Origin: Isoptericola cucumis
GTDB lineage: Bacteria > Actinomycetota > Actinomycetes > Actinomycetales > Cellulomonadaceae
NCBI RefSeq assembly: GCF_014635665.1
Contig: NZ_BMDG01000001.1
Location: 62,001-126,000, forward strand
DNA length: 64,000 bases
Direction of reading: 5' to 3'
Part shown: positions 29,341 to 45,625 of the stretch, in pieces
Numbering within the stretch: the first letter of the stretch is position 1
How the letters are laid out: the number at the start of each line of letters is the position of its first letter
Notes under the pieces: model-generated
Told to the model about the DNA's origin: nothing
Database searches by the model: none
What the model saw: only the letters and a program-made list of their open reading frames with translations
Position numbers and translations under genes: made by a program

Positions 29341-30959
29341 GCACGTTCCTCGGCCTGCCGGGCCTGCGCCGCAGCACGGGCACGGGCTCCACCGCCACGG
29401 GTGCCGGCGCCGGCACGGGGACCGCCGGGGGCGCCGTCGCCGACGAGCCGTTCGGCCCGGTCCCCCACCCGCAGGAGCCGCTGCGCTGGGGTGACGCGTT
29501 CCCCGCCGCCGCGAAGCAGACGCTCGCGAACGACCAGCTGCGCCGCAACCTGGGCCACGCGACGCAGGTGATCCGCACCAAGCGGGCCGCCGTCGTCGGC
29601 GAGGTGCCCGACTGGGAGGCGCTGCGCGACGCCGGCTCCGGCGTCAAGGAGCAGGTCATGGCGCACCTGCCGGAGCTCCTGGAACAGCTCGAGAGAAACG
29701 TCACCGCGCGCGGCGGCGTCGTGCACTGGGCGCGTGACGCGGCGGAGGCCAACCGCATCGTCGCCGACATCGCGAAGGCCAAGGGGGCCGACGAGGTCGT
29801 CAAGGTGAAGTCGATGGCCACCCAGGAGATCGGGCTCAACGAGGCGCTGGCCGAGGAGGGCATCGCCGCCGTCGAGACCGACCTCGCCGAGCTCATCGTG
29901 CAGCTCGCCGACGACATGCCGTCGCACATCCTCGTGCCCGCCATCCACCGCAACCGCACCGAGATCCGCGACATCTTCCTCGCCCGCATGGGCGACGCGC
30001 CGCCCGACCTGTCGGACGTGCCGCGCGAGCTCGCGATGGCCGCCCGCGCGCACCTGCGCCGCAAGTTCCTGTCCGCGAAGGTCGCCGTCAGCGGCGCCAA
30101 CTTCGCCGTCGCGGACACGGGCACGCTCGCGGTGGTCGAGTCGGAGGGCAACGGCCGCATGTGTCTCACGCTGCCCGAGACGCTCGTGACCGTGATGGGC
30201 ATCGAGAAGCTGGTGCCGACCTTCGACGACCTCGAGGTCTTCCTGCAGCTGCTCCCCCGCTCGTCGACCGGCGAGCGCATGAACCCGTACACGTCGATGT
30301 GGACGGGCGTGACACCGGGCGACGGGCCGGCCGAGTTCCACCTCGTGCTGCTCGACAACGGCCGCACCGACGTCCTCGCCGACGAGGTCGGGCGCAGCGC
30401 GCTGCACTGCATCCGCTGCTCGGCCTGCCTCAACGTCTGCCCCGTCTACGAGCGGGTGGGCGGCCACGCCTACGGGTCCGTGTACCCCGGCCCGATCGGC
30501 GCCATCCTCACGCCCCAGCTCACCGCGTCGTCGGGCGGCGTGTCCGGGCACGGCGACCCGAACGCCTCGCTCCCCTACGCCTCCACACTCTGCGGCGCCT
30601 GCTACGAGGTCTGCCCGGTGAAGATCGACATCCCGTCCATCCTCGTGGACCTGCGGGCCCGCGAGGTCGACGCCGACCGCTCGCGCAGCGGCATCGACCC
30701 GTGGGCCGCCGCGATGAAGGCCGCGTCGTGGGTGATGGCCGACGGCGACCGGTTCGCCCTCGCCGGCCGCGCCGCCACGCTCGGGCGCGGGCTGGGCGGC
30801 CGGGACCACGCGATCTCCGTCGCGCCGCCGCCGGCGTCCGCCTGGACGCGCTCGCGGGACCTGCCCGCCCCGCCCGCCCAGACCTTCCGCCAGTGGTGGC
30901 GGGACGAGCACACCGACCCGGCGGCCGGGCCCGCCGCGACGCCGAAGGAGCAGCGATGA
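29337..30959 (+). CDS. lutB: Lactate oxidation iron-sulfur protein LutB
   Basis: 540 residues. After a G/T/A-rich N-terminal segment of about 35 residues comes the LUD domain (VAVSGANFAVADTGTLAVVESEGNGR) and then two 4Fe-4S motifs, CIRCSACLNVCPVY and CGACYEVCPVKIDIPS, followed by a C-terminal helical tail. Electron-carrying subunit of the LutABC lactate-oxidising complex. Both ends overlap neighbours by ATGA. It is somewhat longer than typical LutB because of its two terminal extensions. Confidence 0.93.
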   Translation: MSTFLGLPGLRRSTGTGSTATGAGAGTGTAGGAVADEPFGPVPHPQEPLRWGDAFPAAAKQTLANDQLRRNLGHATQVIRTKRAAVVGEVPDWEALRDAGSGVKEQVMAHLPELLEQLERNVTARGGVVHWARDAAEANRIVADIAKAKGADEVVKVKSMATQEIGLNEALAEEGIAAVETDLAELIVQLADDMPSHILVPAIHRNRTEIRDIFLARMGDAPPDLSDVPRELAMAARAHLRRKFLSAKVAVSGANFAVADTGTLAVVESEGNGRMCLTLPETLVTVMGIEKLVPTFDDLEVFLQLLPRSSTGERMNPYTSMWTGVTPGDGPAEFHLVLLDNGRTDVLADEVGRSALHCIRCSACLNVCPVYERVGGHAYGSVYPGPIGAILTPQLTASSGGVSGHGDPNASLPYASTLCGACYEVCPVKIDIPSILVDLRAREVDADRSRSGIDPWAAAMKAASWVMADGDRFALAGRAATLGRGLGGRDHAISVAPPPASAWTRSRDLPAPPAQTFRQWWRDEHTDPAAGPAATPKEQR

Positions 30960-31648
30960 GCGCGCGCGACGACGTCCTCAACCGGGTGCGCGCGGCGCTG
31001 GGGCAGCCGGGCGCCGGCACGACCCCGGCCGGCAAGGTGGGCACGGCACCCGCCGCCGTCGAGGTGCCGCGCGCGTACCGGCCGGCCGGCGAGCACGCCC
31101 CCGGGAGCCCGGAGGTGCTGGAGCAGCTCGTCGACCGCCTCGTGGACTACAAGGCGCACGTGCACGAGGTGTCCGCCGACACCCTGCCCGCGACGGTCGC
31201 GGCCCTCCTCGGCGAGCTGACGGACGGGGTGCGGGTCGTCGTGCCGTCCGGGCTGGACGACGCCTGGCTGGCCGCGCTGCCCGCGGGCGCCGAGGTCGTG
31301 CGCGACTCGCGCGAGCAGCCGCAGACGGCGGCGCAGCTCGACGCCGTGGACGCCGTCGTCACGGCGGCCCGGGTCGCGATCTCCGAGACGGGCACGATCG
31401 TGCTCGACGGCGAGCCCGACCAGGGCCGGCGCGCGATCTCCCTGGTCCCGGACGTGCACCTGTGCGTCGTGCGCGCCGACCAGGTGACCCAGACCGTGCC
31501 CGAGGCCGTGCGCCTGCTCGGTGGCCACCCCGAGCGGCCGCTCACCTGGATCTCCGGGCCCAGCGCGACGTCCGACATCGAGCTCGACCGCGTCGAGGGC
31601 GTGCACGGCCCCCGCACCCTGCACGTCCTCCTCCTGGCGTCGGGCTGA
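30956..31648 (+). CDS. lutC: Lactate utilisation protein LutC
   Basis: 230 residues, a single LUD (DUF162) domain with the characteristic VAISETGTIVLDGEPDQGRR and, at the end, ATSDIELDRVEGVHGP. Third subunit of the LutABC system. The ATG overlaps the lutB stop. No lactate permease gene is seen next to it in this window. Confidence 0.92.
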   Translation: MSARDDVLNRVRAALGQPGAGTTPAGKVGTAPAAVEVPRAYRPAGEHAPGSPEVLEQLVDRLVDYKAHVHEVSADTLPATVAALLGELTDGVRVVVPSGLDDAWLAALPAGAEVVRDSREQPQTAAQLDAVDAVVTAARVAISETGTIVLDGEPDQGRRAISLVPDVHLCVVRADQVTQTVPEAVRLLGGHPERPLTWISGPSATSDIELDRVEGVHGPRTLHVLLLASG

Positions 31649-34876: not shown

Positions 34877-35584
34877 GTGCCCAGGACCAGCGCTTCGACC
34901 ACGACGCCCGTGCGGCGGCGGCTGCTCGCCGACCACGTGTTCGACGAGCTGTTGTCGCAGCTCATGGACGGCACGCTGCCGGCAGGCAGCAGCCTCAACA
35001 TCGAGGCGCTGGCCCGCGACCTCGACGTCTCCCCCACCCCCGTGCGCGAGGCCCTCGCCCGGCTCGAGGCGACGGGCATGGTGCGGCGGGTGGCGCTGCG
35101 CGGCTACTCCGTGACGCCCGCGCCGACGGCGAAGGAGCTGACGGACCTCATGGACGCCCGGCTCGCCGTCGAGCCGGTGACCGCGTTCTACGCCTGCGAG
35201 CGCGGCGGCGAGGAGTTCCTGGCCGAGCTGGAGCGGGCGGTCGCCGAGCTCGACGCCTCCCCGAACGGGCCCACCTACCAGGAGTTCCGCGACTACTGGG
35301 AGGCGGACGAGCGGTTCCACGCCCTGGTGGCCCGCGCTGCCGACAACACCTACCTGCAGGCCGCGTTCGCGGCGCTCGGCGGGCTGGTGCAACGCTTCCG
35401 GCAGTTCTCCGGCACGGGGGTGACGGACAAGCAGGTCGCCGTCGCGGAGCACCGCGCCATCCTCGACGCCATGCGCTCCGGCGTGCCGGAGCGGGCGCAG
35501 GAGCTCATGCGCCTCCACATCGAGGGGGTGCGCTCGCGCTCGCTCGCGGAACGCGGCGAGCCGGCACCCCCGCCCGGCGTCTAG
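34877..35584 (+). CDS. GntR-family regulator with FCD domain
   Basis: 235 residues. Winged helix (LPAGSSLNIEALARDLDVSPTPVREALARLEATGMVRR, about 37-72) and an FCD-type C-terminal domain with the metal/carboxylate-binding histidines expected in DERFHALVARAADNTYL and AEHRAILDAM. It sits beside, and convergent with, the sugar-acid/erythrulose operon, so it is the best candidate regulator of that operon; FCD proteins usually sense sugar acids or other carboxylates, which agrees. The start follows a -10 hexamer directly (leaderless). Confidence 0.88.
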   Translation: MPRTSASTTTPVRRRLLADHVFDELLSQLMDGTLPAGSSLNIEALARDLDVSPTPVREALARLEATGMVRRVALRGYSVTPAPTAKELTDLMDARLAVEPVTAFYACERGGEEFLAELERAVAELDASPNGPTYQEFRDYWEADERFHALVARAADNTYLQAAFAALGGLVQRFRQFSGTGVTDKQVAVAEHRAILDAMRSGVPERAQELMRLHIEGVRSRSLAERGEPAPPPGV

Positions 35585-35622: not shown

Positions 35623-36960
35623 TCAGACGCGGGCGGCGTCCGCGTCGCCGGTGCCGGACGGCACGCCGGCGGCGTCGTCGGCGCGCTGGATGCGGGCGAC
35701 CACGCGCCGCGCCGCGAACGTGCCGACGGCGCCGAGGAACAGCACCACCATGAGGAAGTACATGCCCGCCTCCGTGGTGCCGGTCGCCTGGGTGAAGATC
35801 CCGACCACGTACGGCCCGATGAACCCGCCGAGGTTCCCGAACGAGTTGATCGCCGCGATCGCGACGGCGGCGGTCGCCCCCGCGAGCACGCCGCTCGGCA
35901 GCGACCAGAACACGCCCGCGATCGAGTAGGCGCAGAACGCGGCCAGCGACAGCGCCGCGAGCTGGAGCGCCGGCGACGAGAACATGGCGCTGGCCCCCAT
36001 GCCGAGGCCCGCCCCGACGAACAGGCACGCGAGCGGCACCCAGTTGTCGGCGAAGTACCGGGCCGCCCACCGCGACGTCACGAGGACGCCGACGAGCGCG
36101 AACAGGTACGGCACGTCGGTGAGCAGGCCGGTCTGGAGCGTCGAGCTCGAGAACCGGTCGACCACCTGCGGCAGCCAGAACGACAGCCCGTACACGCCCA
36201 CCGTCGAGGGGAAGAACAGGAGCGCGAAGACCAGCACCCGCTTGTCGACCAGCGTGCGCAGCGGGTTCTTCCCGTCCTCCTGCTTGCGCTCCGCCTTGTC
36301 CTGGGCGAGCTCGTTCTCGATCCAGTCCGCCTCGTGGGTCGACAGCCACTTCGCGACGCGCGGCGTCTCGGGCAGGAACTTCCAGGTGGGGATCGCCATC
36401 AGCACCGCGGCCAGGCCGACGACGACGAACAGCCACTGCCAGCCGCTCATGCCGAGGCCGGAGACCCCGAGCAGCCAGCCGGCGAGCGGCGACATGATGA
36501 TGAACGCGAGCGGCGCCGAGATGACGAACGTCCCGGTGGCCTTGGTCCGGTGCCGGTGCGGGAACCAGGTGGTGAGGTAGAAGATCACGCCCGGGTAGAA
36601 CCCCGCCTCGGCCACGCCGAGGAGGAAGCGCAGCACGTAGAAGCTGATCGGCCCCTGCGTGAGGGCCATCGCCGCGGTGATGATGCCCCAGGTGACGAGG
36701 ATGCGGACGAACCACATGCGGGGTCCGTACTTCTGCATCAGCACGTTGCTGGGGACCTCGAACAGGAAGTACGCGATGAAGAACAGCCCCGCGCCGAGCC
36801 CGAAGGCCGCGTCGCCGATGCCGACGTCCGCGCCCATGCTCAGCTGGGCGAAGCCGACCGCGGAGCGGTCGATGTACGCGACCGTGTAGAGCGCGACCAG
36901 CAGCGGCAGCAGCCGGAGCGTCACCTTCTTGACGAGGGCGGATTCGTTGACCTGTGTCAC
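35623..36960 (-). CDS. MFS transporter, ACS (anion:cation symporter)-like
   Basis: 445 residues with 12 predicted helices. The N-terminus (RLLPLLVALYTVAYIDRSAVGFAQLSM) and FEVPSNVLMQKYGPRMWFVRI are characteristic of the anion:cation symporter family, which imports organic and sugar acids with protons across the plasma membrane. The GTG at 36960 has AGGAG upstream. It lies 101 bases after the dehydrogenase gene, separated from it by a 13-bp hairpin, and is the last gene of the erythrulose-forming cluster; an acidic substrate fits the enzymes upstream. Confidence 0.88.
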   Translation of the reverse strand: MTQVNESALVKKVTLRLLPLLVALYTVAYIDRSAVGFAQLSMGADVGIGDAAFGLGAGLFFIAYFLFEVPSNVLMQKYGPRMWFVRILVTWGIITAAMALTQGPISFYVLRFLLGVAEAGFYPGVIFYLTTWFPHRHRTKATGTFVISAPLAFIIMSPLAGWLLGVSGLGMSGWQWLFVVVGLAAVLMAIPTWKFLPETPRVAKWLSTHEADWIENELAQDKAERKQEDGKNPLRTLVDKRVLVFALLFFPSTVGVYGLSFWLPQVVDRFSSSTLQTGLLTDVPYLFALVGVLVTSRWAARYFADNWVPLACLFVGAGLGMGASAMFSSPALQLAALSLAAFCAYSIAGVFWSLPSGVLAGATAAVAIAAINSFGNLGGFIGPYVVGIFTQATGTTEAGMYFLMVVLFLGAVGTFAARRVVARIQRADDAAGVPSGTGDADAARV

Positions 36961-37015
36961 GTGAAGACTCCTGTGTCTTGTGCGGGCACGGCTCGGCGAC
37001 GGGCAGTGCGAAGGG

Positions 37016-37048
37016 GCGCGGCGCGACCCGGTCGAGGTCGCGCCGCGC
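37016..37048 (-). terminator. 13-bp hairpin between dehydrogenase and transporter genes
   Basis: GCGCGGCGCGACC (37016-37028) and its exact reverse complement (37036-37048) around a 7-base loop. Being inside an apparent operon, it may partially terminate or stabilise the upstream message and lower transporter expression. Confidence 0.5.
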
Positions 37049-37061
37049 GGTGCGGTGCGGG

Positions 37062-38021
37062 TCAGGCGGGGGACGGACCGAGCGAGCGGACGAGGCGCCC
37101 CATCTCGCTGTACGCCTTGTTGCGGTGCGCGACGAGCGCCTTGACCTGCTCGGGCGTGTAGTCCTTGGTCAGGCCCTTGCCGTTCTTGACGCCGCGCCGG
37201 TCGCCGTCGACGGCCTCCTGGATGAGCGCGGGGGTGCTGAGGCGCTCGCCGAAGGCGTCCTCGAAGGTCCGGAAGCCGCCCGCGTACACGTCCAGGCCGG
37301 CCTGGTCGGCGATGGCGAACGGCCCGAAGAAGCCGAGCCGGAAGCCGAACGTGGTGCGGACGACGGTGTCGATGTCCTCGGGGGACGCGATGCCCTCCTC
37401 GGCGATCGACATCGCCTCCTTGAGGAGCACGTACTGCAGCCGGTTGAGCACGAAGCCCGGCACGTCGGCGACGATCGCGGCCTCCCGGTCGGCCCGGGCG
37501 AGCAGCTCCTTGACCACGGGCACGACCGACTCGTCGGTGCGCTCGCCGAGCACGAGCTCGACGCCCGGGATGAACGGCGCAGGGTTCGAGAAGTGGACGG
37601 TGAGGAACCGCTCGGGGCGCTTCACCGCCGTGGCGAGCACCCGGGCGGGGATGGTCGACGTGTTCGAGCCGATGATCGCGTCCTCGCGCGCCGCGGCCGA
37701 GATGCGGCCGAGCACGTCGTGCTTGACCTCGACGGACTCGAAGACGACCTCCTCGACGAAGTCGACGTCGGCCACGGCGTCCTCGATCGAACCGGCCGTG
37801 CGCAGGTTGGCGCGGATCGTCTCGGTCGCGCCCGCGTCGTACAGGCCGGCGTCCTCGAACTCCTGCGCCTCCGCGAGCAGGCGGGCGTAGGCGGCCTCGG
37901 TCGCCTCGGCGGAGACGTCGGCGATCGTGACGGGCAGGCCCGCGAGCGCGAGCGACTGAGCGATCCCGCCGCCCATGTACCCGGCGCCGATCACGGCGAC
38001 GGTGCTGATGCTGGTGACCAT
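37062..38021 (-). CDS. 3-hydroxyacyl-CoA dehydrogenase-fold NAD-dependent hydroxyacid dehydrogenase
   Basis: 319 residues. N-terminal NAD domain with VAVIGAGYMGGGIAQSLALAG and IIGSNTSTIPARVLA; His in FLTVHFSNPAPFIPGVELV and DVPGFVLNRLQYVLLKEA mark the 3HCDH family, which also includes L-gulonate 3-dehydrogenase and carnitine dehydrogenase. No hydratase or thiolase is nearby; its neighbours are sugar isomerases and a ketose kinase, so oxidation of the 3-hydroxyl of a sugar acid is more likely than fatty-acid oxidation (inference). D-apionate oxidoisomerase-like chemistry is one possibility. GAGAGGAC precedes the ATG at 38021; 35 bases after the isomerase gene. Confidence 0.82.
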   Translation of the reverse strand: MVTSISTVAVIGAGYMGGGIAQSLALAGLPVTIADVSAEATEAAYARLLAEAQEFEDAGLYDAGATETIRANLRTAGSIEDAVADVDFVEEVVFESVEVKHDVLGRISAAAREDAIIGSNTSTIPARVLATAVKRPERFLTVHFSNPAPFIPGVELVLGERTDESVVPVVKELLARADREAAIVADVPGFVLNRLQYVLLKEAMSIAEEGIASPEDIDTVVRTTFGFRLGFFGPFAIADQAGLDVYAGGFRTFEDAFGERLSTPALIQEAVDGDRRGVKNGKGLTKDYTPEQVKALVAHRNKAYSEMGRLVRSLGPSPA

Positions 38022-38056
38022 CGTGGTGTCCTCTCTGGTGGTCCAGTGTGTGGCGG

Positions 38057-38815
38057 TCACGGCCTGGCGGCCGAATCCGCTGGTCGCGCGGCCGCGGCCT
38101 CGTCGAGCACGTCGCGCAGGGCGGCGACGTCGTGGGCGAACCGGCCGAGGAACACGCCGTCGACGGCGCCCGCGAGCGCCGTGAGGGTGCCCGGGCCGGC
38201 GGCGCCGCCGTAGACCACGCGGCCCTCGACGCCGAGCCCGTCCAGCCGGTCGCGCAGCGCGTGCGCCACGGCGACGACGTGCGCGGCCGGCGCGGGCCGG
38301 GGGGCGCCGATCGCCCACACCGGCTCGTAGCCGACGACGACCTGCCGCGGCTCGGCGTCGCGCAGCGCGCTCTCGAGCTGCGCCACCGCGAGGGCGGCGG
38401 CCTCGTCCGGGCCGGCCTGCCGCTCCTCCCCCACGCAGAGCAGCGGCGTGACGCCCGCCTCGGCGAGCCGGGCCACCTTGGCCCGCACGACGTCGTCGTC
38501 CTCGTGGAACGAGGCGCGGCGCTCCGCGTGCCCGACGACAGCCAGCCGGCAGCCGAGCTCGGCGAGCAGGGCCGCGGTGACCTCGCCGGTCTGCGCGCCG
38601 TGCGCGCCGGGCGCCACGTCCTGCGCACCCCACGCCACCGACGTCCCCGCGAGCACACGCGCCGCCGTCGGCAGCAGCGGGAACGTCGGCAGGACGGCGA
38701 GCTCGACGTCGCCCCCGGCCGGGGCGGCGTCGCGGACCTCCGCCAGCCAGCGCTCCGTGTCCGCCGCCCCGAGGTATGCCTTGAGGGAGACGGCGACGAG
38801 GGTGCGGCGCGTCAT
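38057..38815 (-). CDS. Triosephosphate-isomerase-family enzyme, probable L-erythrulose-1-phosphate isomerase
   Basis: 252 residues. TIM fold with the catalytic residues kept: K12 in VSLKAYLG, H96 in [12 protein letters not shown]164 in [11 protein letters not shown]. It differs from glycolytic TIM at conserved places: GNWKMN becomes VSLKAY and GHSERR becomes GHAERR, so the phosphate or substrate pocket is changed. Divergent TIM homologues next to an RpiB-like and a DhaK-like gene are the LerI enzymes of tetritol catabolism, which isomerise L-erythrulose 1-phosphate to D-erythrulose 4-phosphate. ATGA overlap with the RpiB-like gene. Function by homology and context. Confidence 0.82.
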
Positions 38816-39351
38816 CCGCAGGACCCGGCGGGCTCCGTGAGCTCGCCCAGCCCGGCGTCCGCCTCGACCTCGCCGATCGCCGCGACCTTGGGCGCCGACG
38901 ACGACGCGGGGTCGAAGCGGTAGCCGAGCCACTCGCGCAGCAGGCGCCGCGCCAGCTCGATGCCGACCACGCGCTGGCCGAAGCACAGCACCTGGGCGTC
39001 GTTCGACAGCACGGCGCGCTCGACGGAGAACGAGTCGTGGGCGGTGACGGCGCGGACGCCGGGCACCTTGTTGGCCGAGATGGCGACGCCGAGCCCGGTG
39101 CCGCACACGAGCAGCGCGCGGTCGGCCTTCCCCTCGGCGACGAGCCGCGCGGCGGCGGCCCCCACGTACGGGTAGTGCGTGTGCTCGTCGGCGCCCACGC
39201 CGACATCGGTCACCTCCGCGACGCGCGCGTCGGCCTCGAGGTCCGCCTTGAGCAGCTCCTTGTAGTCGAACCCGGCGTCGTCCGAGCCGACGACGACCCG
39301 CAGCGCGGTCGTGGTGGGGGTGGTCCCGTCCTGGTCCTGGGTCGTGGTCAT
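38812..39351 (-). CDS. RpiB/LacAB-family isomerase, probable D-erythrulose-4-phosphate isomerase
   Basis: 179 residues. RpiB fold: [20 protein letters not shown] at the start, His in [17 protein letters not shown], and the catalytic-base motif [22 protein letters not shown]. In erythrulose pathways such enzymes (DerI) convert D-erythrulose 4-phosphate to D-erythrose 4-phosphate, which enters the pentose phosphate pathway. It is about 25 residues longer than housekeeping RpiB because of a T/D-rich start and a C-terminal tail. ATGA overlaps at both ends lock it between the kinase and the TIM-like gene. Confidence 0.83.
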
Positions 39352-41090
39352 CGTGCCGGCACCTCCGCGTCGTGGTTGCTGACGCCGAGCGCGGCACCCA
39401 CCTCGGCGAGGAGGAGCGCGAGCGACGTCGCCCCCGGGTCGGCGACCCCGAGGCTCTTGTCCCCCAGCACGCGCGAGCGACCGCGGCGTGCCGTGATGTC
39501 CTTCGTGGCCTCCGCGCCGTCGCGGGCGGCGCGCACGGCGGCGCGCCAGGCGTCGGCCGCCGCCGCACCGCCCCCGTGCGCCGCGAGCAGCGCCTCCAGG
39601 GCGGGGTCGAGCGCGTCGACGAGCGTCTTGTCCCCGACGCGCGCGCCGCCCACGGCGCAGACCTCGTCGCGCGCGGCGTGCAGGCCCTCGGCGACGTGCG
39701 CGCCGGTCAGCGGCGCGTCCGCGGGCAGGTGGTCGGCCAGCGCGAGCAGGCCGACGCCCCAGAGTGCGCCGGAGGTGCCGCCCGCGCGGTCGGCCCAGCG
39801 GTCCGCGGCGCGGCGCAGCACGGACGGCGCGTCCGCGCCGGCGGCCAGCGCCTCGTCCGCGGCCTCGACGGCGGCGTCGATCCCCCGGCACATACCGCGG
39901 CCGTGGTCGCCGTCGCCGGCGATCGCGTCGAGGTCGCCCAGCTCGGCCTCCGCACCGTGCAGCACCTGCTGCGCCCGCTGCAGCGCGCCCACGACGACGC
40001 GCGCGGCGTCGGCGCCCTCGTCCGTGGTCGCCAGGACCAGCGGCGGCTCGGGCTCGGTGACGGCGTCCGGCGCGGGCACCGCCGGCGCCGCCCGCCAGCC
40101 GCCGTGGCGGAACGCCGGGGTGGCGGCGGGCGCGAGCCACAGCGGCTCGAGCTCGTCGTCGAGCCACGTCACCGTCAGCGAGAGCCCCGCCATGTCGAGG
40201 CTGGTCACGTACTCGCCGACGAGCGGCGCGACCAGCGTCACGCCCTGCTCGGTCAGCAGGTCGTGCACCCGGTCCCACAGCACGAAGAGCTCCTCGTACT
40301 TCACCGTCCCGAGCCCGTTGAGGACGACGGCCGCGCGGCCGTCGGCGCCGGCGGGCCGGTCGGCGAGCACACGCTCGACGAGCTCGGCGGCGAGGTCCGC
40401 CGCCGGGGGCACCGGCTCCTCGCCGATGCCGGGCTCGCCGTGGATGCCGAGCCCCCAGCCCACCTGGCCCTCGGGCAGGTGGAACAGCGGTGCGTCGGCG
40501 CCGGGCAGCGTGCAGCCGTCGAAGGCGACGCCGAAGGAGCGCGTGCGGTCGTTTGCGAGACCCGCGAGGCGGTCCACCTCGGCCAGGTCGGCGCCCGCCT
40601 CGGCCGCCGCACCCGCGACCTTGAAGACGACGAGGTCGCCCGCGACGCCGCGGCGCTCCGCGGCGCGCTCCGGCGGGGCGGAGGCGACGTCGTCGGTGAC
40701 GAGTCGCACCGCGACGTCGACGCCCTGGGCGCGCAGCCGGCTCGCGGCGGCGCCGAAGTTGAGGACGTCGCCGGCGTAGTTGCCGAAGGAGAGCCAGATG
40801 CCGGCGCCCGCGTCGGCGGCGCGGCACACGTCGAGCACCTGGCGGGTGGACGGGGAGGCGAAGATCTCGCCGCAGACGGCGGCGTCGGCCACGCCATCGC
40901 CGACCAGCCCGGCGAACGCCGGGTAGTGGCCGGAGCCGCCGCCGACGACGACGGCGACCTTGCCGGGCCGGGTGCCCTCGGCGCGGGCCACCCCGCCGGG
41001 CACCCGGCGCAGGGTGCCGGGGTGCGCCTTGACGAGGCCGCTCAGCGCCTCGCGGGCGAAGTCCTCGGGTCGGTTGTGGACGTAGGTCAT
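39348..41090 (-). CDS. DhaK-DhaL fusion kinase, probable L-erythrulose 1-kinase
   Basis: 580 residues. An N-terminal DhaK domain (1 to about 340) with [19 protein letters not shown] and the histidine that forms a hemiaminal with the ketone in GLGIHGEPG (H217); a C-terminal DhaL ATP-binding domain (about 370-570) with the Mg-binding [10 protein letters not shown] and [18 protein letters not shown]-dependent ketose kinases of this type phosphorylate dihydroxyacetone or, when clustered with LerI/DerI-like isomerases, erythrulose. GHYP in place of GHEP agrees with a non-dihydroxyacetone substrate. ATG at 41090; ATGA overlap with the RpiB-like gene downstream. Confidence 0.85.
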
Positions 41091-41122
41091 GGGACCGGCA
41101 CCTTTGCTCGTGCGGTTCGGGA

Positions 41123-41139
41123 GCGCGCCGCGGGCGCGC
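41123..41139 (-). other. GC-rich hairpin between the TIM-barrel and kinase genes
   Basis: GCGCGCC (41123-41129) pairs with GGCGCGC (41133-41139) around a 3-base loop, in the 101-base gap inside the operon. Possible processing or attenuation element. Confidence 0.35.
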
Positions 41140-41150
41140 CGGGCGGTCGT

Positions 41151-41177
41151 GGTCGGGGTGGTCGGGGTGGTCGCGGT
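41151..41177. repeat. Three 9-bp tandem units
   Basis: GGTCGGGGT repeated three times (the third copy with one change) in the intergenic space of the erythrulose operon. Simple slippage repeat. Confidence 0.6.
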
Positions 41178-41191
41178 GTGGTGGTCGCGGC

Positions 41192-42121
41192 TCAGCGCCC
41201 GGCGGAGCGCAGCACCCCGCGGATGTAGTCGCGATTGATCGCGGCGACGCCGAGGCTGTCCGACCCGTAGTGCTCGCAGACGAACACGCCGTCGAAGCCC
41301 AGCTCGAGCGCCCGCCGGATCACCGCCCGGTAGTTGACGACCCCCTGCACCAGGGGCATCGGGTGCGTCGAGTAGGCGCCCGTGGCCAGGTCCTCGTCGC
41401 GCGTGTAGTTCTTGATGTGCCAGAAGTTCGTGTAGGGCAGGACCTTCTCGAACATGGTCGGGATGTCCTCGATCGGCCGGTGCAGGCGCACGAGGTTGCC
41501 GAGGTCGGGGTTGAGGCCGACGTTCTCGCGGTCCACGTCCTGCACGAACCGCACCGCCAGGTCCGGCGTCCCGATGTACGTGTCCTCGTACATCTCGAGG
41601 CTGATCTCGACGCCGACCTCGCTCGCGTGGTCGGCGAGCTCGCGGATCCGCCGGATCGCCAGGTCGCGAGTCTGGGTGTCCTCGAGGTCGTCGTGGTGCC
41701 CCTCGGCCAGCCAGAACCACAGCGCGCGCTCCTGGGCGGGCGTGAGCGCCTGCATGAGGCCGAAGTTCACGACCTCGGCGCCGAGTGCGGGCGCTCGGTC
41801 GATGATCGCGTGGCCGAAGCGCAGGTAGTCCTCGCCGCGGTCGGCGTCGACGACGCTGCGTCGCGTGGTCGACACGGACGGCACGCTCAGGCCGACCTCC
41901 TTGAGCACGACCAGCAGCTCCTCGAAGCGCGGGTCGCTCATCTCGCCGATCGACAGCCAGGCGTCGGTGGGGTCGACGTCGGTGAAGCCGAGGTCCGCGA
42001 CCTGCTGGAGCTGGCCCCGCCAGGAGGCGGCGGGGGCGTCCAGGTTGGGGGTGCCGTCGGCGGCCGTCGGGCCGAACGAGAGCATGTTGGCCGCGATCGG
42101 CCAGGTGTCCGCAGTGCGCAA
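41192..42121 (-). CDS. Xylose-isomerase-like TIM-barrel protein (sugar isomerase/epimerase or decarboxylase)
   Basis: 309 residues from a TTG start (GGAG six bases upstream gives support). AP-endonuclease-2 fold with metal-ligand positions in [14 protein letters not shown] (Glu), VGLNPDLGN (Asp/Asn), [12 protein letters not shown] (His) and [10 protein letters not shown] (Glu). Relatives isomerise or epimerise sugars; one branch (OiaC) decarboxylates 3-oxoisoapionate to L-erythrulose. Since the genes downstream would consume L-erythrulose and make a 3-oxo acid, a decarboxylase role is the attractive hypothesis here. First gene of its operon, behind a 22-bp perfect palindrome. Confidence 0.78.
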
Positions 42122-42144
42122 GGAGATCTCCGTCGATCGGCAAT

Positions 42145-42166
42145 CGTGTTTCCTATAGGAAACACG
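42145..42166. promoter_or_regulatory. Perfect 22-bp palindrome, probable operator
   Basis: Arms CGTGTTTCCTA and TAGGAAACACG are exact reverse complements with no spacer. It sits 23 bases upstream of the TTG start of the TIM-barrel gene and about 145 bases upstream of the divergent Gfo/Idh gene. The site is unlike the LacI and FadR sites elsewhere in the window; the GntR/FCD regulator of the cluster is one candidate binder. Confidence 0.75.
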
Positions 42167-42256: not shown

Positions 42257-42309
42257 ACCTCCGCGCCCCCGCCGAGCGGACAGGCGCCACGTACGACGAA
42301 GGAGTCCTC

Positions 42310-43482
42310 GTGACCAGCACCACCACGCGCACCCTGCGCATCGCGATGAACGGCGTCACCGGCCGCATGGGATACCGCCAGCACCTCGTGCGCTCGATCC
42401 TGCCGATCCGCGACGCCGGGGGCGTCGAGCTGCCCGACGGCTCGCGCCTGCAGGTCGAGCCCGTGCTGGTCGGCCGCAACGAGGAGAAGCTGCGCGCGCT
42501 GGCCAAGGAGCACGACGTCGCGGAGTACACCACCGACCTGGACGGCATCGTCACCGACCCGGGCACCGACGTCGTGTTCGACGCCGCGATGACCAACCTG
42601 CGCCCCGCGACGCTGAGCAAGGCGATGCGCGCCGGCAAGCACGTCTACACCGAGAAGCCGACGGCGGAGACCCTCGCCGAGGCCGTCGATCTCGCGCGGC
42701 TGCGGGAGGAGACCGGCGTGACCGCCGGCGTCGTGCACGACAAGCTGTACCTGCCGGGCCTGGTCAAGCTGCGGCGCCTGGTGGACGAGGGCTTCTTCGG
42801 CCGCATCCTGTCGCTGCGCGGCGAGTTCGGCTACTGGGTCTTCGAGGGCGAGCACCAGGCCGCCCAGCGCCCGAGCTGGAACTACCGCAGCCAGGACGGC
42901 GGCGGCATGACCACGGACATGTTCTGCCACTGGAACTACGTCCTCGAAGGCATCCTCGGCTCGGTCAGGACCGTGAACGCCCAGACGGTCACCCACATCC
43001 CCACCCGCTGGGACGAGCAGGGCAAGCCCTACGACGCCACCGCCGACGACGCCGCGTACGGCATCTTCGAGGTCGAGACCCCGGGCGGCGACCCGGTCGT
43101 CGCACAGATCAACTCCTCCTGGGCCGTGCGGGTGTACCGCGACGAGCTGGTGGAGTTCCAGGTCGACGGCACGCACGGCTCCGCCGTCGCCGGCCTGCGC
43201 AAGTGCGTCTCGCAGCAGCGCGCCAACACGCCCAAGCCGGTGTGGAACCCGGACCTGCCGGTCACCGAGCCGTTCCGCGACCAGTGGTCCGAGGTCCCGG
43301 CGAACGCCGACCTCGACAACGGCTTCAAGCTGCAGTGGGAGGAGTTTCTGCGCGACGTCGTCGCCGGCCGCCCGCACCGGTACGACCTGCTGTCCGCCGC
43401 CCGCGGCGTCCAGCTCGCCGAGCTGGGCCTGCGCTCGTCCGCCGAGGGCCGCCGCCTCGACGTCCCGGAGATCTCGCTGTGA
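42310..43482 (+). CDS. Gfo/Idh/MocA-family oxidoreductase of the DUF993 operon
   Basis: 390 residues. The N-terminus reads RIAMNGVTGRMGYRQHLVRS, an unusual nucleotide loop resembling dihydrodipicolinate reductase; the EKP signature is TEKPTAETLAEAVDLARL, and the C-terminal domain has SWNYRSQDGGGMTTDMFCHWNY with conserved His. NAD-dependent oxidation or reduction of a sugar derivative is expected. The GTG at 42310 has AAGGAG upstream. Its stop overlaps the next gene as GTGA. First gene of a coupled trio. Confidence 0.88.
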   Translation: MTSTTTRTLRIAMNGVTGRMGYRQHLVRSILPIRDAGGVELPDGSRLQVEPVLVGRNEEKLRALAKEHDVAEYTTDLDGIVTDPGTDVVFDAAMTNLRPATLSKAMRAGKHVYTEKPTAETLAEAVDLARLREETGVTAGVVHDKLYLPGLVKLRRLVDEGFFGRILSLRGEFGYWVFEGEHQAAQRPSWNYRSQDGGGMTTDMFCHWNYVLEGILGSVRTVNAQTVTHIPTRWDEQGKPYDATADDAAYGIFEVETPGGDPVVAQINSSWAVRVYRDELVEFQVDGTHGSAVAGLRKCVSQQRANTPKPVWNPDLPVTEPFRDQWSEVPANADLDNGFKLQWEEFLRDVVAGRPHRYDLLSAARGVQLAELGLRSSAEGRRLDVPEISL

Positions 43483-44741
43483 CCGCCCCGACCGACACCC
43501 GGCTGGCCCCGGACCTGACGCCGAGCGGCGTCACCGTCCGGCTCCCCCGGTTCGACGACGCCGGCCGCGCGACGGGCACCGAGGTGCGCGAGCTCAACGC
43601 GCCGGGCCCGTGGCAGGCGCCGTCGGCACCCCTCACCTCCCGCGTCGCGTTCGCCGCCGCGCACGTCGTGCCGCACGTGGGCGCCGAGAACGTGCCCGGG
43701 GCGCCCGCCCTCGTCGACTGGGACGCCACCCTCGCCTACCGGCACCGCATCTGGTCGCACGGCCTCGGCGTCGCCGACGCCATGGACACCGCCCAGCGCG
43801 GCATGGGCCTGGACTGGGCCGCGACGCAGGAGCTGGTGCGGCGCTCGTCCGCCGAGGCGGCGTCCGTGGGCGCGCGCGTCGCGTGCGGCGCGGGCACCGA
43901 CCAGCTCGACGCGGCCGTCGTCGCCGGGTGGGAGCCGGGCGACCCGGCGGCGCTGGCCGCCGTCGCCGACGCCTACCGCGAGCAGGTGCACGCGGTGCAG
44001 GACGCCGGGGCGCAGGTCATCGTCATGGCCTCGCGCGCCCTGGCGAAGGTCGCGCGCTCGGCGGAGGACTACGCCCGCGTCTACGACGCCGTGCTCGCCG
44101 AGGCGGAGAAGCCCGTCGTCCTGCACTGGCTGGGCACGATGTTCGACCCGGCCCTCGCCGGGTACTGGGGCTCCGACGACGTCACCTCGGCGACGGCGAC
44201 GTTCCTCGACCTCGTCAAGGCCCACCAGGACCGGGTCGACGGCGTCAAGGTCTCGCTGCTCGACGCGCAGCACGAGATCGGCCTGCGCCGGTCGCTCGCG
44301 GCGCTCGACGGCTCGCCGGTCCGCCTCTACACCGGCGACGACTTCAACTACCCCGAGCTGATCGCCGGCGACGACCAGGGGCACTCCGACGCCCTGCTCG
44401 GCATCTTCGCGGCGATCTACCCCGCGGCGTCGACGGCGCTGCAGGCGTTCGACGCCGGGGACGGCGGGCGGGGCCACGCGATCCTCGCCTCGACCGAGCG
44501 GCTGGGGCGCCACATCTTCGCCGCGCCCACGTACTACTACAAGACCGGCGTGGCGTTCCTGTCGTGGCTGAACGGCTTCCAGCCCGGGTTCCAGCTCGTG
44601 GGCGGGCTGCACTCCGGCCGCTCGCTGGCGCACCTGGTCGAGCTGGCCCGGCTCGCCGACGGCTGCGGCATGCTGCTCGACCCGGCGCTGGCGGCCCAGC
44701 GCCTGGACGCCCTCCTCACGACGAACGGGGTCGCCCGATGA
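43479..44741 (+). CDS. DUF993 family protein (dihydrodipicolinate-synthase-like)
   Basis: 420 residues. Matches DUF993, annotated as a distant dihydrodipicolinate synthase/aldolase-like TIM barrel: VDWDATLAYRHRIWSHGLGVADAMDTAQRG early, VIVMASRALAKVARSAEDY and PVVLHWLGTMFDPALAGYWG, and a lysine in VDGVKVSLLDAQHE at the place where class I aldolases carry the Schiff-base residue. If active it would cleave or condense a keto acid; no experimental role is known to me. GTGA and ATGA overlaps bind it to the dehydrogenase and the isomerase. Confidence 0.85.
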   Translation: MTAPTDTRLAPDLTPSGVTVRLPRFDDAGRATGTEVRELNAPGPWQAPSAPLTSRVAFAAAHVVPHVGAENVPGAPALVDWDATLAYRHRIWSHGLGVADAMDTAQRGMGLDWAATQELVRRSSAEAASVGARVACGAGTDQLDAAVVAGWEPGDPAALAAVADAYREQVHAVQDAGAQVIVMASRALAKVARSAEDYARVYDAVLAEAEKPVVLHWLGTMFDPALAGYWGSDDVTSATATFLDLVKAHQDRVDGVKVSLLDAQHEIGLRRSLAALDGSPVRLYTGDDFNYPELIAGDDQGHSDALLGIFAAIYPAASTALQAFDAGDGGRGHAILASTERLGRHIFAAPTYYYKTGVAFLSWLNGFQPGFQLVGGLHSGRSLAHLVELARLADGCGMLLDPALAAQRLDALLTTNGVAR

Positions 44742-45625
44742 GCGGCGCGGACCTGAGCCGGTGCTCCCTCAACACCGCGACCGTCAAGCGGGCGAGCCTC
44801 GCCGAGGCGGTGGACGCCGCGGCGTCGGCGGGGCTGGGCGCGGTCGGGCTGTGGCGCCACCAGGTGCAGGAGCACGGCGCCGAGAAGGCGGCGCGCATCG
44901 TGTCCGACGCCGGGCTGCGGGTCTCGTCGCTGTGCCGCGGCGGGTTCCTCACGGCGGCGGACGACGTGGGCATCGCCGCCGCGCTCGACGACAACAAGCG
45001 CGCCATCTCAGAGACGGCGGGCGTCGGCACCCGCGAGCTGGTCTTCGTCGTCGGCGGCCTGCCCGCCCTCAGCGAGCCCGGCCAGGGTCCGCGCGCCGAC
45101 GCCGGCCCGGGCGACCGCGACCTCGTCGCCGCCCGCGCCCGCGTGGCCGACCGGATCGCCGAGCTCGCGCCGTTCGCCGCCGCGCACGACGTGCGGATCG
45201 TGCTCGAGGCGCTGCACCCGATGTTCGCCGCCGACCGTGCGGTGATCTCGACGCTCGGGCAGGCGCTCGACCTCGCGGCGCCGTTCGACGCCGCGACCGT
45301 CGGCGTCGTCGTGGACACGTACCACGTGTGGTGGGACCCGGACCTGCGCGCCTCGATCGCCCGGGCGGGCGCCGAGGGCCGGATCGCGAGCTACCAGGTG
45401 TGCGACTGGAGCCTGCCGCTGGCCGCCGACCCGCTCAACTCGCGCGGGCACGTGGGCGACGGCTACATCGACTTCCCGACCGTCTCCCGCTGGGTGGCCG
45501 AGACCGGCTACGCCGGCGACGTCGAGACGGAGATCTTCAACGAGGACGTGTGGGCCGCCGACCCCCGCGTCACCGCCCGCACCGTGGGCGAGCGGTACGC
45601 GCGGCACGTGCTCCCGCACCTGTGA
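44738..45625 (+). CDS. Sugar phosphate isomerase/epimerase family protein
   Basis: 295 residues. Xylose-isomerase-like TIM barrel: LSRCSLNTATVKRASLAEAVDAA at the start, metal-site residues in RIVLEALHPMF (Glu), VVVDTYHVWWDPDL (Asp, His), YQVCDWSLPL and DVETEIFNEDVW (Glu). Probably isomerises, epimerises or dehydrates a sugar intermediate produced by the two preceding enzymes. ATGA overlap with DUF993. Confidence 0.85.
   Translation: MSGADLSRCSLNTATVKRASLAEAVDAAASAGLGAVGLWRHQVQEHGAEKAARIVSDAGLRVSSLCRGGFLTAADDVGIAAALDDNKRAISETAGVGTRELVFVVGGLPALSEPGQGPRADAGPGDRDLVAARARVADRIAELAPFAAAHDVRIVLEALHPMFAADRAVISTLGQALDLAAPFDAATVGVVVDTYHVWWDPDLRASIARAGAEGRIASYQVCDWSLPLAADPLNSRGHVGDGYIDFPTVSRWVAETGYAGDVETEIFNEDVWAADPRVTARTVGERYARHVLPHL

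Follow-up and report, generated by a model that had tools for sequence, protein, structure and literature searches.

In this study, we describe a candidate sugar-acid operon in a 64,000-nucleotide stretch of the Isoptericola cucumis genome (contig NZ_BMDG01000001.1 of assembly GCF_014635665.1, positions 62,001 to 126,000; hereafter the window, in whose coordinates positions are given). Six consecutive genes, taken from open reading frame calls, are arranged like an operon on the minus strand from 42121 to 35623, and we consider it rather probable that they serve to break down a five-carbon sugar acid via erythrulose, with a linear pentonate as the likeliest substrate. The pentonate would be imported by a major facilitator superfamily (MFS) carrier, and its C3 hydroxyl would be oxidized to a 3-oxo acid by a 3HCDH-type enzyme with NAD. 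A TIM barrel protein would then strip CO2 from this beta-keto acid, yielding erythrulose, which a DhaK-DhaL kinase would phosphorylate; the erythrulose phosphate would be converted to erythrose 4-phosphate by two isomerases, one resembling triose-phosphate isomerase (TPI) and one of the RpiB family. A GntR regulator and a palindrome may switch the operon. Sequence comparison establishes the gene content, the paralogy, the non-CoA signature of the dehydrogenase, the sharing of the erythrulose module and the exchange of dehydrogenases, and we infer all catalytic steps; this holds foremost for the loss of CO2 and for which acid is used.

The first gene (41192..42121, 309 aa, Pfam AP_endonuc_2) begins with TTG, a start also present in four aligned relatives, and encodes a xylose-isomerase-like TIM barrel, the putative 3-oxo-acid decarboxylase. 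It is followed by genes for a DhaK-DhaL fusion (39348..41090, 580 aa, Dak1 and Dak2), proposed to be an erythrulose kinase of the LerK/DerK type, an RpiB-family isomerase (38812..39351, 179 aa, LacAB_rpiB), a divergent TPI-family isomerase (38057..38815, 252 aa, TIM), an NAD dehydrogenase of the 3HCDH family lacking CoA-site signatures (37062..38021, 319 aa, 3HCDH_N and 3HCDH), which is the proposed sugar-acid 3-dehydrogenase, and an MFS carrier (35623..36960, 445 aa, MFS_1), the proposed sugar-acid importer. The carrier is nearest to the ACS/2A0114 type, its closest NCBIfam model being that of D-galactonate transporters (280.8 bits, under the model cut-off of 395). An earlier annotation made from the letters of the window (the original prediction) had placed these six gene types in one minus-strand cluster with three genes locked by ATGA overlaps. 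Pfam fits all six, and two such overlaps (39351/39348 and 38815/38812) couple the kinase, RpiB and TPI genes. That annotation had also reported no tetritol dehydrogenase or apionolactonase, which was borne out: the ten genes scanned with Pfam around the operon include no polyol dehydrogenase and no apionolactonase. The operon itself contains no polyol carrier or polyol dehydrogenase, the marks of tetritol pathways, according to Pfam and NCBIfam, and none of its six genes encodes a sugar-acid dehydratase, the mark of the Weimberg and Dahms pathways, according to Pfam.

The assignment of the lower half as a module from erythrulose to erythrose 4-phosphate is strongly supported by paralogy, signature motifs, the TPI tree and the sharing of genes with apionate-type and tetritol-type clusters. 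Searches of the same genome found three RpiB, two TPI and three Dak1 genes; the second TPI gene comes after genes resembling GAPDH and PGK, and DhaK and DhaL also occur as a separate split set. A housekeeping role for the RpiB, TPI and kinase of the operon was ruled out because these separate copies exist, their own housekeeping status having been judged from neighboring genes by eye. The operon RpiB shares 79% identity with its counterpart in a polyol-type cluster elsewhere in the genome, against 34% with the third RpiB, and the operon TPI shares 48% with the TPI from an apionate-type cluster of Pantoea, against 38% with the glycolytic TPI of its own genome. The Pantoea cluster holds MFS, DHAK, TPI, TIM barrel and PGDH_C oxidoreductase genes with RpiB nearby. 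We call this cluster and its Erwinia counterpart D-apionate clusters because the Pantoea PGDH_C protein is 37% identical to a Rhizobium one near an annotated oiaX, and we assume the names ApnO (also from gene context) and OiaC for their enzymes. A TPI-family tree of 86 rows unites the operon TPI with copies from apionate-type and tetritol-type clusters in a clade of 21 rows (SH-aLRT 99), from which a group of 17 housekeeping rows is separate. The operon kinase carries the motif HYPAF, as do apionate-type and tetritol-type kinases, whereas the DhaK encoded elsewhere in the genome has GGGSGHEPLH (HEPLH) instead. YPAF was present in 66 of 76 kinase matches beyond the window, and in the other 10 the motif was not found within the aligned part. 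The polyol-type cluster (locus L073, 6161-13581, on contig C5) comprises a DhaK-DhaL fusion, an RpiB, an RbtT/DalT-type carrier, a zinc dehydrogenase, an FGGY kinase and a sugar-binding regulator, and it probably serves a tetritol or another polyol. The roles of LerK, LerI and DerI, and the phosphorylation of both erythrulose enantiomers by LerK, are given in PMC10733421.

The dehydrogenase probably acts on a free hydroxy acid, a reading based on missing sequence stretches that we take to be features of the CoA site. Its nearest solved structure is 4om8, named as a dehydrogenase of a free pyridine carboxylate. We aligned 60 cluster-type rows (the window and 59 loci, including L056-L058, which have no barrel gene nearby, and excluding the partial genes of L093, L127 and L147) with 18 comparison 3HCDH proteins returned by the same search. 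The basic stretch [KR][FL]VxK and the stretch [ML]MxLxE, both presumably parts of that site, are found together in 15 of the 18 comparison rows, and neither is found in any of the 60 cluster-type rows, all of which have [IVT]P[GC]VE at the place of [ML]MxLxE. His143 and Glu155 are common to all rows counted (17 comparison rows, without L026). Asn193 is constant in the 60 cluster-type rows; since Thr replaces it in 15 of the same 17 comparison rows, we did not count it as a shared catalytic residue. An identification of the dehydrogenase as ApnO was rejected, as it has 3HCDH_N and 3HCDH domains and gave no BLAST match at E 0.01 to three PGDH_C proteins taken as ApnO. At another locus (L060, 8827-11899), a 3HCDH gene of the cluster family (53% identity) lies beside SDR-like and histidinol-dehydrogenase-family genes without a barrel, possibly as part of a different sugar-acid route.

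The TIM barrel belongs to the family of PDB 5TNV (AP endonuclease, family protein 2; E 1.8e-122). The 5TNV protein, whose source we take to be M. smegmatis, is very near the barrel of locus L044 (E 4.3e-200), which groups with mycobacteria in the barrel tree and has 3HCDH, DhaKL, RpiB and TPI genes beside it. We know of no published function for the 5TNV protein. Glu176, Asp206, His235 and Glu283, presumably metal ligands, are invariant across 17 aligned barrels. Identity with OiaC was rejected by BLAST (no match at E 0.01), Pfam, NCBIfam and profile comparison, in which OiaC reached about 18% identity to the barrel profile and was interleaved with unrelated AP_endonuc_2 proteins. An early preference of the profile for OiaC over two other barrel families was lost once 30 further AP_endonuc_2 loci had been added, four of which turned out to be orthologues of the operon barrel. 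The barrel would thus be a decarboxylase by pathway logic rather than by homology. The original prediction has to be divided. Its erythrulose kinase and two isomerases leading to erythrose 4-phosphate are upheld by the evidence on the lower half, and its acid carrier and non-CoA 3-hydroxyacid dehydrogenase by the NCBIfam result and the motif counts. Its use of OiaC and ApnO as pathway enzymes has to be given up, since neither protein is homologous at the family level.

The genomic distribution of the barrel provides further evidence for the route. The barrel occurs in 13 of 296 genomes of the class, with a 3HCDH relative beside it in nine of the 13. We compiled 97 barrel loci from the best 80 of at least 587 confirmed genomic matches, 12 class genomes, four chosen plasmids and the window, whose labels were entered by hand. 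Close relatives are over-represented in this set, and our Fisher tests on co-occurrence ignore relatedness. Neighbors were counted within about 10 kb; leaving the window aside, flanks of 6.5 kb or more are available on both sides at 79 of the 96 loci. DhaKL neighbors the barrel in 77 of the 97 loci, RpiB in 60, the two jointly in 59, and a TPI of the LerI/EryH type in 55 (15 of the window type and 40 of the EryH type, never together). A 3HCDH gene is found in 60 loci (three of them partial: L093, 36% identical and uncalled as a gene, and L127 and L147, each lying at the end of a contig), PdxA in 21 and IsoDH in one, so that 82 loci have at least one of the three. 3HCDH and PdxA do not occur jointly at any locus. 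A tripartite tricarboxylate carrier accompanies PdxA in 20 of its 21 loci, and an MFS or GntP carrier, counted at 40% or more identity to a reference, accompanies 3HCDH in 39 of 60. On the barrel tree, the PdxA label changes eight times, with at least six of the changes forced by well-supported branches. Within the genus, the barrel of Isoptericola sp. 4D.3 is 87% identical to that of the window, and identities to the reference proteins of the set are 83-90% for its barrel, kinase, RpiB and TPI, whereas GntR, PdxA and a tripartite carrier replace 3HCDH and MFS at the locus (3HCDH elsewhere in that genome was not searched for).

Such an exchange of dehydrogenases is expected if several acids lead to a common 3-oxo acid, because oxidation at C3 erases the configuration there. 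On the simplest reading, C3 oxidation of various C5 sugar acids would give a single 3-oxo acid, from which the barrel would make erythrulose by decarboxylation. We tentatively extend this to a previously undescribed modular entry, whose chances we put at a little short of even, in which interchangeable and unrelated dehydrogenases (3HCDH, PdxA and perhaps SDR or IsoDH) would feed a shared 3-oxo-pentonate to decarboxylases of the 5TNV family, supplying erythrulose to LerK, LerI and DerI in actinobacteria and rhizobia.

Several observations weigh against the proposed route. The operon RpiB fails the NCBIfam DerI model NF051858 (144.9 bits against a cut-off of 240) and passes the actinobacterial ribose-5-phosphate isomerase model (193.3 over 168.2); the RpiB of the polyol-type cluster fails the DerI model too (151.8 bits), and the name of the model suggests a rhizobial scope. 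Eighteen of the 97 loci have none of the kinase, RpiB and LerI/EryH-type TPI nearby, seven of them sitting on stretches shorter than 14 kb, and 15 lack 3HCDH, PdxA and IsoDH. The GntR-PdxA-carrier cassette is found without the barrel as well. A profile of the 97 barrels scores OiaC no better than several unrelated AP_endonuc_2 proteins. Several close relatives in a survey of 16 genomes showed no LerI-type TPI genome-wide, and one genome, G059, has a single RpiB and a single TPI in all, which fits neither the erythrulose route nor the four-carbon alternative considered below. Finally, relatives of PdxA and IsoDH are known to decarboxylate by themselves, so the barrel could do another step.

An alternative is that CO2 departs during the dehydrogenase reaction or spontaneously, in which case the barrel would epimerize or isomerize either the acid or erythrulose. 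The PDB matches next after 5TNV are xylose-isomerase-like barrels and D-psicose 3-epimerases (E about 5e-9), the four invariant residues would suit such an enzyme, and PdxA stands beside the barrel in more than a fifth of the loci. However, we know of no 3HCDH enzyme that decarboxylates, and a barrel gene is missing from the polyol-type cluster of this genome. Moreover, an erythrulose epimerase would be superfluous, as one kinase takes both enantiomers according to PMC10733421. On this evidence, we regard a non-decarboxylating barrel as unlikely. A four-carbon acid seems less likely still: 3HCDH would form a 3-oxo-tetronate, the barrel would release dihydroxyacetone, DhaKL would make dihydroxyacetone phosphate and TPI would convert it to glyceraldehyde 3-phosphate. 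This scheme would suit those rhizobial loci that hold PdxA, an acid carrier, the barrel and the kinase with no RpiB or TPI nearby, and tetronate-type genes do lie near some clusters. Yet it would leave RpiB idle despite the joint presence of DhaKL and RpiB noted above, the kinase and TPI signatures match erythrulose-type clusters, and the three tested genomes of the Brucella group, whose loci likewise lack RpiB and TPI nearby, have adjacent RpiB and EryH-type TPI genes at another place. Four genomes without the kinase module near the barrel were also inspected, and a second RpiB is present in three of them (L047, L102 and L141) and not in G059.

To D-apionate, which the original prediction had named as a candidate substrate, we give very little credence. 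An apionate pathway with unrecognized forms of ApnO and OiaC would account for a kinase and isomerases of the same kinds as in the Pantoea and Erwinia clusters. However, C3 of apionate is tertiary and so does not permit direct oxidation by 3HCDH, and homologues of the PGDH_C-type ApnO and of OiaC, which belong to different families, form their own pair in addition to the barrel branch in nine of the 97 loci. Kinase or isomerase genes are in range at six of the nine (L100, L103, L118, L121, L138 and L140) and not at L123, L130 and L139. Because these nine loci hold both branches, the two would feed the same erythrulose module, and the barrel branch would not be for apionate.

For the proposed pentonate route, the evidence on L- versus D-erythrulose is mixed. 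A LerI-type TPI is present in the operon and absent from the polyol-type cluster, which points to L-erythrulose and thus to an acid with the L configuration at C4, such as L-arabinonate. In the survey of 16 genomes, most of them picked for a cluster without a TPI gene, nine have a single, housekeeping-like TPI gene (L088, L092, L096, L098, L110, L102, G239, G235 and G059); L088, L092 and L096 are Promicromonospora, with barrels 86-87% identical. These single-TPI genomes would fit D-erythrulose, with the proviso that genomes reached via loci have no completeness values and that a missing TPI could reflect an assembly gap. Seven of the nine retain DhaKL and RpiB beside the barrel (at L054, L055, L088, L092, L096, L098 and L110), which also disfavors a four-carbon acid and dihydroxyacetone. 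At L093, L095 and L105, genes for GH39, an aldo-keto reductase, a sugar ABC carrier and SDR proteins run into the barrel operon, with an arabinofuranosidase nearby at L105, and these neighbors suggest a plant-glycoside source for the acid. Lactonase-type SMP-30 genes lie near four clusters (Pfam having been run on one). FMN-dependent and D-isomer-specific 2-hydroxyacid dehydrogenases lie near the cluster in Brachybacterium (L103, 15958-17295; L106, 14731-15762; L121, 18516-20818), as judged by Pfam for one L103 and one L106 protein and by likeness for L121, and they perhaps invert C2 of the acid.

A perfect 22-bp palindrome, CGTGTTTCCTATAGGAAACACG (42145..42166), separates the first gene from a TTGACA element (42185-42180) and is likely an operator. 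Allowing up to two mismatches, its 16-base core has no second copy in the 4.46-Mb genome, and six relatives (L085-L087 and L089-L091) have the core unaltered upstream of their barrel gene. The region of the original prediction had ended at 42166, the outer edge of the palindrome. A GntR/FCD regulator gene (34877..35584, plus strand) is convergent with the operon, and we propose that its product would act at the palindrome.

Divergent genes on the plus strand of the window (42304-45625) encode Gfo/Idh, DUF993 and a second AP_endonuc_2 barrel. Six Promicromonosporaceae loci keep the same set close to the cluster, Mycobacterium sp. PSTR-4-N (L108) again has it nearby, and a functional tie to the operon is possible. 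Farther away (29352-31645, plus strand) are LutB-like and LutC-like lactate utilization genes with LUD domains. At three other loci (L195, 8147-14532; L196, 8090-14607; L064, 14827-20439), genes for GntR, a PdxA-type dehydrogenase and a tripartite carrier occur with a DRL_cat protein, which we take to be DXR-like (Pfam was run on L195 and L064 proteins). No barrel is present at L195 or L196, and this gene set is perhaps a branched sugar-acid route.

As a coherent and testable inference, the upper half of the route would be new, in that it uses enzyme families unused in known routes, and the erythrulose module would be known. Literature searches returned no paper describing the pathway among the matches listed; their coverage of subscription papers was thin, and hence they are no proof of unpublished status. 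If the proposal is true, it would provide a sugar-acid route that bypasses the Weimberg and Dahms dehydratases and yields erythrose 4-phosphate, from which aromatic compounds are made. It would also give a function to the structurally solved 5TNV family, which to our knowledge has none assigned and counts at least 587 confirmed genomic matches, and a clear case of unrelated dehydrogenases substituting for each other before one fixed enzyme. Additionally, substrates could be named for many genes that carry general labels, such as 3-hydroxyacyl-CoA dehydrogenase family, PdxA, ribose-5-phosphate isomerase and triose-phosphate isomerase.

Tetritol pathways were reportedly described by Huang et al. 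in 2015. According to PMC10733421, the threitol and erythritol pathways use LerK, LerI and DerI, and the operon resembles them in its kinase and isomerases, as does the polyol-type cluster with DhaKL and RpiB in the same genome. Unlike these pathways, the operon has an acid carrier, a 3-hydroxyacid dehydrogenase and a TIM barrel and has no polyol dehydrogenase or carrier. The Weimberg and Dahms pathways likewise degrade pentonates, and they proceed by a sugar-acid dehydratase, which the operon lacks. The 5TNV protein shares the barrel family of the operon and is known as a structure only. D-Apionate catabolism is said to run through OiaC, LerK, LerI and DerI (Carter et al. 2018). It shares with the proposed route a carrier, the 3-oxo-acid logic, a DhaK-DhaL-family kinase, TPI-family and RpiB-family isomerases and the end at erythrose 4-phosphate, whereas the operon has 3HCDH in place of the PGDH_C-type ApnO, another AP_endonuc_2 family in place of OiaC and an acid that is probably unbranched. 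The L-gulonate 3-dehydrogenase route, which ends at L-xylulose, resembles the proposed scheme in that a 3HCDH-type enzyme oxidizes a sugar acid at C3 and CO2 is then lost to give a ketose, and it differs from the operon in its six-carbon acid, its pentulose product and its unrelated decarboxylase.

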